Part shown: piece by piece, positions 1 to 4,103 of the stretch | Numbering within the stretch: position 1 is the stretch's first letter | Layout of the letters: the number at the start of each line of letters is the position of its first letter | NCBI GenBank assembly: GCA_903789615.1 | Contig: CAIFEV010000001.1 | Location: forward strand, 62,001 to 126,000 | DNA length: 64,000 nt | Source: an uncultured Lachnospiraceae bacterium | Lineage (GTDB): Bacteria; Bacillota; Clostridia; Lachnospirales; Lachnospiraceae | Direction: 5' to 3' | Position numbers and translations under genes: made by a program | Notes under the pieces: model-generated | Told to the model about the DNA's origin: nothing | The model's database searches: none | What the model saw: only the letters and a program-made list of their open reading frames with translations

Positions 1-655
1 GCTGCACACAGGGTACAAGACCCGCCAGGCGGCCAATGCACGCGCCATCGAGCTTCTTAAGATGGTCGGCGTCAATGAACCGGAGAGCCGTATAAAGCAG
101 TATCCGTTCGAGCTTTCCGGCGGTATGCGCCAGAGAGTCATGATCGCCATGGCGCTTGCCTGCGAGCCGGATATCCTGATCGCGGACGAACCGACGACGG
201 CGCTGGATGTGACCATTCAGGCACAGATTCTGGAGCTGATGAAGGACCTTCAGAAGAAGCTGGGCATGGCTATTATTCTGGTGACGCACGATCTGGGTGT
301 GATCGCCTCGATGTGCGATGAGGTCATTGTTATGTACGGCGGCCGCGTCTGCGAGCGCGGTACGGCCGATGACATCTTTTACCGGCCATGTCATGAGTAC
401 ACAAAGGGACTTCTCCGGTCCATTCCGAGTGCCGGAAACATGAAAAAGAAGCTGATCCCGATCGGCGGCACACCGATCAATATGCTGGCTCTTCCGGAAG
501 GCTGCGCGTTCTGTCCGAGATGCGCGAATGCCATGAAGATCTGCCTGACACAGCAGCCGGAGGAATTGGAGATGCCGGACGGGCATTTCGCGTCCTGCTG
601 GATGAACGTCAAAGAGGCATACGAGGAAGAACATAACGGGAAGGCAGGTGCATAA
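1..655 (+). CDS. oppD: Oligopeptide/dipeptide ABC transporter ATP-binding protein (OppD/DppD-like), 5' truncated by window edge
   Basis: Open frame from position 2; ABC signature LSGGMRQRV, Walker [14 protein letters not shown]-terminal Cys-rich oligopeptide-transporter tail ([14 protein letters not shown]). Confidence 0.93.
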
Positions 656-1636
656 ATGGGAGTTCCGGAAAAAATCGACACCGAGAATCTTGTCGAACTG
701 CATAATCTTAAAGAGTATTTTCCGGTGAGGACGGGTGCATTTTCCACGGTTCCGCTGAAGGCGGTCGACGGGGTGTCCTTTAACATCCGGGCGGGCGAGA
801 CGCTCGGCCTGGTGGGAGAGTCCGGCTGCGGCAAGACGACGGTTGGCCGGACGATGCTGCGGCTGTATAAGCCGACCGGCGGCGAGTTTTATTTTGACGG
901 TGAGCTGGTCACCGACAAAAATATACACAGACTGCGCAAGCAGATGCAGATGGTATTTCAGGATCCGTATTCTTCTCTGGACCCCAGAATGACGGTCGAG
1001 GACATCATCGGCGAGCCGCTTGACATCTATCATCTGTACAGCAGTAAAGCGCAGCGCCATGAGCGCATTATGGAGCTGATGGAACTGGTGGGACTCAACG
1101 CGGAGCATGCCACGCGGTATGCACATGAGTTCTCCGGCGGTCAGAGGCAGCGAATCGGCATTGCCAGAGCGCTCGCGGTCAACCCGAAGTTCATTGTCTG
1201 CGACGAGCCGGTGTCCGCTCTGGATGTCTCCATCCAGGCGCAGGTCATTAACATGTTCGAGGACCTGCAGAAGAAGCTGGGCGTCGCGTATCTGTTCATC
1301 GCCCACGATCTGCTGGTCGTCCATCACATCTCGAAGCGCATCGCGGTCATGTATCTCGGAAAACTGGTGGAGATCGCCGACGCGGATGACCTGAACGACA
1401 ACCCGATCCATCCGTACACCCTGTCACTGCTTTCCGCTATACCGATCCCGGATCCGAAGACAGCCCGGGCGTCAAAGCGGATTGTGCTGGAGGGAGATGT
1501 GCCTTCTCCGATGCACATGCCGAGCGGCTGTCCGTTCCGGACCCGCTGCCGGTACGCGACGGAGCAGTGCGCAAAGGAGATGCCGCCGCTTACGGACCGG
1601 GGGAACGGTCACAGCGTTGCGTGCTGGAACCGGTGA
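656..1636 (+). CDS. oppF: Oligopeptide ABC transporter ATP-binding protein (OppF/DppF-like)
   Basis: Walker [10 protein letters not shown], signature [31 protein letters not shown]-terminal [10 protein letters not shown] motif; immediately follows oppD. Confidence 0.94.
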
Positions 1637-1746: not shown

Positions 1747-3567
1747 ATGAGGAAGAAAACATTCGCAGTTGCGATGAGTACCGTGCTTGCCGCGGGAAGC
1801 ATCGCAGGATGCGGAAGCGCGGCAAGCGCCCCGAAGGAAGCAGCTTCCGGTGCCGCTTCCGGTCAGGCTGCTACAACTGCTGCTGCCGCTTCAGCGTCCA
1901 CAGAGGACTGGGCGTCCAAAATTCAGTTCACGGCTTCGGCAAAGAACCCGGCAGCGCCGGACTGGACAGAGTATGACAAGCTGATCGATGAAGTCAATAA
2001 TGACGCTGATTTTGCGGACCGCGCCGTAAAGCTGCACAAGGCAGAGGATATGCTGATGGCAACCGGCGCCGTGATCCCGATCTATTACTACAACGATCTG
2101 TATCTGGAGAACCCGGCCTTCTCCGGCGACTACGCATCCATTTTCGGCACAAAGTACTTTATGTACGCGAAGAAGGACGGTCAGCCGACCGACGTGATGA
2201 AGATCAACCTGGCTTCCGAGCCGGATAAGCTTGACCCGGCGCTCAACAGCACTGTCGACGGCGCAGCACTTGCGTCCAACAGTTTTGTCGGTCTGTACAT
2301 TATCGACAAGGACGGCAATTATCAGCCGGCACTTGCAGACGGCCAGCCGGAGGTTTCCGATGACGAGCTGACCTACACCATCCACATGAAGCAGGATCTG
2401 AAGTGGTCCGACGGCACACCGCTTAACGCTAACGACATTGTGTATTCCTGGAAGCGCGCGGCGGATCCGAAGACGGCTTCGGACTACTCCTATCTGTTCG
2501 CTGTATTTGACGGATATTCCGAGGACGGATCTTCTGAGATCAACGTGTCCGCTCCGGATGACAACACCGTCACCTTCAAGCTGGCGGCACCGTGCCCGTA
2601 CATGATGAACCTTCTGGCATTCCCGGTATTCATGCCGGTTCCGAAGGCGGCGGTTGAGGCGGCCGATCCGGACGGGACGAACCCGGGCGCATGGGCGCTT
2701 GAGGCCGGCTTTGTCTCCAACGGTGCATTCACGCTGAAAGAGTGGAAACACAACGAGTCCATGGTTTATGTGAAGAACCCGAACTACTATGATGCCGACA
2801 ATGTCAGCGTGAACGAGCTTGATTTCATGCTTTCCGCGGATGACACGGCGATCCTGGGTGCTTATCAGGCCGGCGACATCGACTATGCCGACACGGTTCC
2901 GAATGACGAGATCAAAAACCTGAAGAGCGGTGCGGATTTCCATGTTGTTCCGAATCTGGGAACCTACTATGTTGGCTTCAACGTAAACTCCAAGATATTT
3001 GATGGCAAGACACCGCAGCAGGCAGCTGACATGCGCCGTGCTCTGGGACTTCTTATCGACCGCCAGTACATTGTAGATACCATCGGTCAGACCGATCAGG
3101 AAGTTGCGACATCCTTCGTTCCGACAGGCGTGAGCGACGGCAACGGCGGCAAGTTCAAGACCAACTCCGATTCCTACAAGTATCCGGTCGACACCGGCTA
3201 CTACCAGGATCTGTCCGTGGCCGGACAGGCCAATGTCGATCAGGCGAAGGCTCTTCTGGAGTCTGCCGGCTACAAGTTTGATGAGAGCGGCAAGCTTTCA
3301 GCGGATACTCCGATCACCATCAACTACATCACCAACAAGGGTACAGGCCATGAGGCGATCGCACAGGCTATCCAGCAGGATCTGGGGGCAATCGGTGTGA
3401 CTGTCAACATCTCCACCGAAGACTGGCAGACATTCGTCAACGACCGCAAGAGCGGCAACTTCGACGTTGCCCGCGGCGGCTGGCTCGGTGACTATGATGA
3501 TCCGATCACGATGCTGAGTCTGTTCACATCCACATCCGGCAACAACGACCAGCAGCTCGGCAAATAA
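1747..3567 (+). CDS. oppA: Oligopeptide ABC transporter substrate-binding lipoprotein (OppA family), apparently circularly permuted
   Basis: Lipobox-like AGSIAGC; SBP_bac_5-type core (ASEPDKLDPALNS...DLKWSDGTPLNANDIVYSWKRAADP...). The family's usual C-terminal segment (YDKLIDEV...AEDMLMATGAVIPIYYYNDLYL) lies near the N-terminus. Confidence 0.92.
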   Translation: MRKKTFAVAMSTVLAAGSIAGCGSAASAPKEAASGAASGQAATTAAAASASTEDWASKIQFTASAKNPAAPDWTEYDKLIDEVNNDADFADRAVKLHKAEDMLMATGAVIPIYYYNDLYLENPAFSGDYASIFGTKYFMYAKKDGQPTDVMKINLASEPDKLDPALNSTVDGAALASNSFVGLYIIDKDGNYQPALADGQPEVSDDELTYTIHMKQDLKWSDGTPLNANDIVYSWKRAADPKTASDYSYLFAVFDGYSEDGSSEINVSAPDDNTVTFKLAAPCPYMMNLLAFPVFMPVPKAAVEAADPDGTNPGAWALEAGFVSNGAFTLKEWKHNESMVYVKNPNYYDADNVSVNELDFMLSADDTAILGAYQAGDIDYADTVPNDEIKNLKSGADFHVVPNLGTYYVGFNVNSKIFDGKTPQQAADMRRALGLLIDRQYIVDTIGQTDQEVATSFVPTGVSDGNGGKFKTNSDSYKYPVDTGYYQDLSVAGQANVDQAKALLESAGYKFDESGKLSADTPITINYITNKGTGHEAIAQAIQQDLGAIGVTVNISTEDWQTFVNDRKSGNFDVARGGWLGDYDDPITMLSLFTSTSGNNDQQLGK

Positions 3568-3586: not shown

Positions 3587-3637
3587 TTCCCCGGTGTTTA
3601 AAGTGCATGCTTTTAAGCACCGGGGAATTTTTTTTGC
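3587..3637 (+). terminator. Rho-independent terminator after oppA
   Basis: CCCCGGTG...CACCGGGG stem followed by AATTTTTTTT. Confidence 0.85.
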
Positions 3638-3800
3638 CTCTTTACCCGGCTTCCCGGACAGGCGAAAGGGCACCGGTGGTCAGGTTTGAATCTCTTGACA
3701 GGCGCTCTTTCCGGAAAATATAATGCGTACGTAGCAGCAGGTGCGGCGGCACTGCGCGTCCTGCCGGACAGGATACGGAGAAGAAAAACGGGAGGTTCCT

Positions 3801-4103
3801 ATGGTTAAGCATATTATTCTGTGACAGCTGAAGGATGAATACACGGAGGAACAGAAAAAAGAAATCCGGGCCGGGATTAAAGAAGGCCTTGAGGGGCTGA
3901 AGGGAAAGGTCCCGGGCCTCCTGGAGGTCTCCGTGAGAACGGAGTTCCTGCCGTCGTCCAACGCGGATGTGATGCTGGACACGACGCTTCAGGACGCTGA
4001 AGCCCTGAAAGGGTACGCCGTTCATCCGGCCCATGTGGCCGTGGCGGACTCGAAGGTCCGCCCGTACACGAAGACCAGAGTATGCATGGATTATGAGATC
4101 TGA
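3801..4103 (+). pseudogene. Dabb (stress-responsive A/B barrel) family gene with in-frame TGA at codon 8
   Basis: GGGAGGT RBS then ATG; translates MVKHIIL*QLKDEYTEEQKKEIRAGIKEGLEGLKGK...SSNADVMLDTTLQDAEALKGYAVHPAHVAVADSKVRPYTKTRVCMDYEI*. TGA at 3822-3824 sits where the family usually has Trp (VKHIxLW). Confidence 0.75.

Follow-up and report, generated by a model that had tools for sequence, protein, structure and literature searches.

Organisation of the locus

The window analysed here is a 64,000-nt stretch of contig CAIFEV010000001.1 (assembly GCA_903789615.1) from an uncultured Lachnospiraceae bacterium. An unbroken open reading frame at 1747-3567 encodes a 606-aa SBP_bac_5/OppA protein and belongs to an operon with oppBCDF, of which oppB and oppC are placed immediately upstream, outside the window. 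The gene is likely to encode the peptide-binding lipoprotein of an oppBCDF-A importer; peptide binding is inferred here, without binding or transport data. The features are as follows.

1..655, + strand: oppD (ABC ATPase), 3′ part only
656..1636, + strand: oppF (ABC ATPase), same operon as oppA
1747..3567, + strand: oppA, circularly permuted oligopeptide-binding lipoprotein, 606 aa (ORF, profile and alignment)
1747..1809, + strand: lipoprotein signal peptide, residues 1-21, MRKKTFAVAMSTVLAAGSIAG cleaved before C (sequence, lipobox SIAGC)
1810..1953, + strand: predicted acylated Cys22 and low-complexity Ala/Ser/Thr linker, residues 22-69 (mostly disordered in the model)
1954..2172, + strand: displaced OppA C-terminal segment, residues 70-142, APDWTEYD...KYFMYAK (alignments and AlphaFold2 elements)
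2173..2202, + strand: linker KDGQPTDVMK, residues 143-152, from the old C-terminus to the old N-terminus
2203..3564, + strand: OppA core, residues 153-606, INLASEPD to ...SGNNDQQLGK (alignments)
3587..3636, + strand: intrinsic terminator, 17-pair stem (3587-3627) and T-run, 3′ of oppA

Further downstream comes a small Dabb-domain (stress-responsive A/B barrel) gene (3801-4103), and between it and the oppA terminator is a perfect TTGACA-18-TATAAT promoter match (3695-3724). The Dabb gene is broken at codon 8 by an in-frame TGA, where L031, a near relative, reads TGG (Trp). Since no SelB was found above the cut-off in the genome, the TGA looks like a point nonsense change, not selenocysteine.

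A circularly permuted OppA

The preliminary description, made from the sequence alone, proposed that this oligopeptide-binding protein is a natural circular permutant, with about 75 residues moved from its end to its beginning. This held, and the permuted order itself is demonstrated: the tail occupies residues 70-142 and the core residues 153-606, and the two segments together cover one homologous protein completely, in swapped order. The Pfam family SBP_bac_5 matches residues 192-600 (E = 2.4e-89; 300 bits against a gathering cut-off of 32.4). In phmmer searches of the PDB, residues ~141-601 align with 12-449 of Bacillus subtilis OppA (8are), and residues 74-139 align with the C-terminal 455-520 of the same chain as a second, order-swapped stretch. 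With the N-terminal piece as lone query, the only significant matches were OppA-type C-terminal tails, namely those of DppE (449-504; E = 1.3e-8), B. subtilis OppA (453-520; E = 1.3e-3) and enterobacterial OppA (434-497; E = 3e-3), far above chance expectation. Identity to canonical sisters is 52-66% in the core.

The finer claims of that description also held. The missing tail had been placed after the lipoprotein leader and before the usual N-terminal start, where the equivalent of OppA ~444-517 is indeed found. The moved unit is refined to ~73 aa (about residues 70-142), comprising the end of domain III and the last strands of domain I, and a linker of ~10 aa connects it to the old N-terminus (INLASEPD, 153-160). 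As claimed, the protein stops without the usual tail (its end is ...SGNNDQQLGK), a clean terminator follows the stop, and no normal tail remains downstream, with no second tail near the gene here or in related loci. Homologues with the same order were found in dozens of independent assemblies; the large size of this family and the many order changes among its orthologues had not been foreseen.

An AlphaFold2 model built with an alignment of 59 permuted homologues is a confident single fold (mean pLDDT 89, pTM 0.86), with residues 1-51 below a pLDDT of 50. The displaced segment (pLDDT 93-98) runs helix-helix-strand, as does the OppA tail: helices 74-84 and 89-106 and strand 109-121 correspond to helices 504-515 and 519-535 and strand 539-551 in the tail of the canonical sister L119. 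The model was compared with OppA by Foldseek, which aligns in chain order, and its match to OppA had an E-value of 1.7e-35. Against 8are, 475 columns were aligned (TMt 0.73), versus 551 columns (TMt 0.87) for L119, which has its tail in the usual place; the deficit roughly equals the tail in length. The permuted pieces thus probably form one OppA-like fold, as predicted by the model and without a permutation-aware superposition.

In OppA, domain I comprises residues 1-44, 189-269 and 487-517 and domain III residues 270-486 (PMC6305025). Therefore, the break (~438-444) falls in domain III, and the two old termini belong to domain I. The amino end of the peptide is held by D419 of OppA (PMC5736914). 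The equivalents of D419, R404 and R413 of Salmonella enterica OppA are D582, R567 and R576 of the window protein; among the 59 permuted proteins D582 is invariant and the two arginines are nearly so. Peptide binding by the window protein is inferred from these equivalences, in the absence of binding data.

Permuted and canonical orthologues

Relatives were collected by scanning GTDB species genomes and by searches across the family, order and class, and a profile-based classification was applied to 142 classifiable reading frames, including a few duplicate records of one gene. From Lachnospiraceae and other Clostridia, 84 of the 142 were permuted and 58 canonical, and a later batch supplied further members of both kinds. 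None of the 142 had a tail at both ends, and no double-core or double-tail intermediates occurred among them; stray tail or core fragments adjoining oppA were absent from every long locus examined. Where flanks were covered, permuted and canonical orthologues alike close an oppB-C-D-F-A operon, with the exceptions of L188 and L190, whose opp neighbours are divergent or incomplete; L047, L060 and L104 had no opp neighbour within the DNA covered.

Identity of permuted members to the window protein ranges from ~95% down to ~50%, leaving L158 apart. The L031 protein, from a separate assembly, is 93-95% identical and has the same order, which is also present in isolates (e.g. Blautia caecimuris DSM 29492) and in single-contig genomes. 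The displaced tails of permuted proteins share up to 70-78% identity with the C-terminal ones of their canonical sisters, and syntenic permuted and canonical orthologues reach ~84% core identity. The distant homologue L158 (G334; 36-39% identical) is also permuted and is possibly another separate event. An internal stop or a disrupted frame was seen in the permuted oppA copies L140 (G279), L101 (which includes a masked stretch) and L055. Two canonical oppA-like genes lie in tandem, ~600 bp apart, on contig 2 of G329 (637957-641154), so tandem duplication of oppA does occur in distant relatives within the family.

Signal peptides were also inspected. SPase I-like signal peptides without a lipobox Cys occur, across several clades, in about 19 of 77 permuted proteins, five of these being ambiguous; a lipobox-like Cys was seen in all 57 of 57 canonical proteins. 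An independent-pairs test had too few pairs, and the association of lipobox loss with permutation is without statistical support. The SPase I-like proteins are L072, L075, L078, L064, L122, L125, L118, L083, L077, L073, L088 and L193, together with L058 and L123; L059, L063, L065, L067 and L079 are ambiguous.

The chain order has changed repeatedly among these orthologues. A careful core-only tree required nine order changes, seven of them forced by well-supported branches, and the core plus tail tree also required nine. In a careful tree of concatenated OppBCDF, which is independent of oppA, there were eight changes, six of them forced, and none of 200 OppBCDF bootstrap trees was compatible with a single change. 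Holding all permuted rows together was rejected (AU test; P = 7.9e-39 for the core, P = 0.00026 for OppBCDF). Nested cases include permuted L049/L097 with canonical L109 and L117/L172, permuted L136 and L138 within a canonical clade, and permuted L217 with canonical L218/L219. For L049, L136, L138 and L217 the nearest relatives of the tail are those of the core, so the tail was rearranged in place, and its acquisition by transfer was rejected. At the DNA level, permuted L049 and canonical L109 align in place over the 5′ leader (62%), with the core at 80% and the tail shifted en bloc (70%). A search for recent switches in same-genus genomes of L119, L136 and L138 gave only one extra match, the canonical L192, which falls elsewhere in the tree.

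At least six order changes among orthologues are therefore established, and eight to ten is the most likely number. With two-state models on the OppBCDF ingroup, gain-only (10 gains) had a lnL of -24.0 versus -31.5 for loss-only, and reversible models (-24.6 to -24.8) were near gain-only. We infer that most changes were independent canonical-to-permuted events, and an occasional reversal remains possible. Because deep ingroup nodes are weak, several changes are of uncertain direction, and the operon tree should not be read as a species tree.

Mechanism, alternatives and significance

The breakpoint is in the same loop in every permuted protein, and in 77 of 84 the exact end follows ...QxG[K/R] (a second count, with duplicates and fragments removed and the later batch included). 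The loop that separates ...SGNNDxQxG[K/R] from xPxWxxYD is anywhere from ~6 to ~45 residues long in canonical relatives and is therefore dispensable. Insertions of 25-45 residues occupy this exact loop in canonical L153, L154, L155, L157, L161 and L165. The N-terminal linker of the window protein (...AKNPAAPDW) resembles canonical linkers such as GKNPTPQAPDW, and it is possible that both sides of the loop were retained.

We propose that an in-frame local duplication would have produced core-tail-core-tail, after which the outer pieces (core 1 and tail 2) would be lost and the leader retained. Permutation by duplication is a known natural mechanism (PMC3320104); here, the duplication step remains an inference because no intermediate has been found. 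The old termini, meeting in domain I, are joined by the ~10-residue linker, and new termini open in the domain III loop after ...SGNND-xQxG-K/R. Fold and peptide site are probably retained, and the lipid tether now enters domain III, not domain I. The recurring end point may reflect a dispensable loop whose edges delimit the folded domain. Overall, a true permutant with its fold and peptide site kept and with repeated order changes is the likely reading, its peptide binding being inferred. Weighing against it, duplication models predict intermediates and 0 of 142 reading frames provided one, and a residue-identical C-terminus is surprising for supposedly independent events, leaving fewer origins with recombination or reversion possible.

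A bolder reading, to which the balance of evidence tips us slightly, is that OppA of Lachnospiraceae-type Clostridia was permuted in place within the oppBCDF-A operon, at one identical loop, on some ten separate occasions, and perhaps reversed as well, making circular permutation a frequent, repeatable step that was possibly selected for re-siting of the tether. The strongest alternative concerns the cause only and is compatible with repeated in-place permutation: the change may be neutral, with a loop that tolerates opening, tandem duplication at the 3′ end easing the change and no gain from the tether move. The variable length of the canonical loop and the tandem oppA copies of G329 support neutrality; against it, the permuted order is frequent in the clade and persists across deep clades, with a single permuted protein (L158) among the more distant relatives examined. 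We regard this explanation as marginally the less probable one.

It is also possible, but less well supported, that one ancient permutation was followed by repeated reversions, or that permuted and canonical alleles later recombined via tail-core-tail intermediates. The shared end point and the permuted state of the basal OppBCDF ingroup branches speak for this, and homologous recombination is common between related gut bacteria. Against it, the loss-only model fits far more poorly, tail relatives track the core and not a donor of opposite order, and double-tail forms are lacking among the 142 reading frames. Furthermore, the gene trees place permuted L136, L138 and L217 within or next to canonical clades (for L136 and L138, so does the operon tree), and a GK-[DN]P...AP-W pattern is common to linkers of separate canonical clades, as if retained and not re-made.

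An assembly artefact or chimera is all but ruled out, since only the draft state of the source assembly (21 contigs) speaks for it, and against it stand the same order in L031, isolates and single-contig genomes, the intact ORF and the syntenic operon. Nor is there much room left for an unrelated, convergent or added N-terminal domain on a tail-less OppA. In its favour, a Pfam scan of the fragment yields no real family, because the SBP_bac_5 match stops before the tail; against it, the fragment specifically matches OppA/DppE tails and has corresponding secondary-structure elements, and permuted tails reach 70-78% identity to those of canonical sisters.

The permuted protein shares with OppA/DppE (SBP_bac_5, cluster C; PDB 8are, 8ay0 and 1ola) the fold, the peptide-binding Asp and Arg equivalents, the oppBCDF operon and the lipoprotein leader. 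It differs in carrying the C-terminal ~73 residues at its N-terminus, with a tether that leads to domain III and a new C-terminus in the domain III loop. Treponema pallidum Tp0684 (MglB-2), a circularly permuted glucose-binding protein, is likewise a natural permuted, tethered substrate-binding lipoprotein, and its relatives are present in Gram-positive gut bacteria (PMC4990184). However, Tp0684 belongs to an unrelated subfamily (a type I/cluster B sugar binder), carries a usually N-terminal segment at its C-terminus and has a fourth hinge crossing (PMC4990184). No repeated origin among syntenic orthologues is described for it in the sections of that paper bearing on the question. A Tp0684-like Type Ic identity for the window protein was rejected, as its matches are to SBP_bac_5/OppA. 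Circularly permuted DNA methyltransferases and swaposin are precedents for natural circular permutation and for the duplication mechanism (PMC3320104); in OppA, by contrast, the same break is found many times over among orthologues that share one place in the operon. As a rule, natural circular permutations are known from one-off events in the distant past. The literature searched held no report of a circularly permuted OppA/SBP_bac_5 protein, Tp0684 being the sole natural precedent among substrate-binding proteins, and none of repeated permutation of syntenic orthologues; for the former this is weak evidence, as most subscription papers were not covered.

The tail escapes profile tools that work in chain order, and permuted OppAs could therefore be mistaken for truncated proteins by annotation pipelines. 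Because permuted and canonical forms are syntenic orthologues with up to ~84% core identity, the origin, reversal and effects of permutation are directly testable. These proteins suggest that an N-terminal tether may lead into either lobe of a substrate-binding protein, and they provide an unusually clear natural case of repeated protein rearrangement in gut and rumen bacteria.
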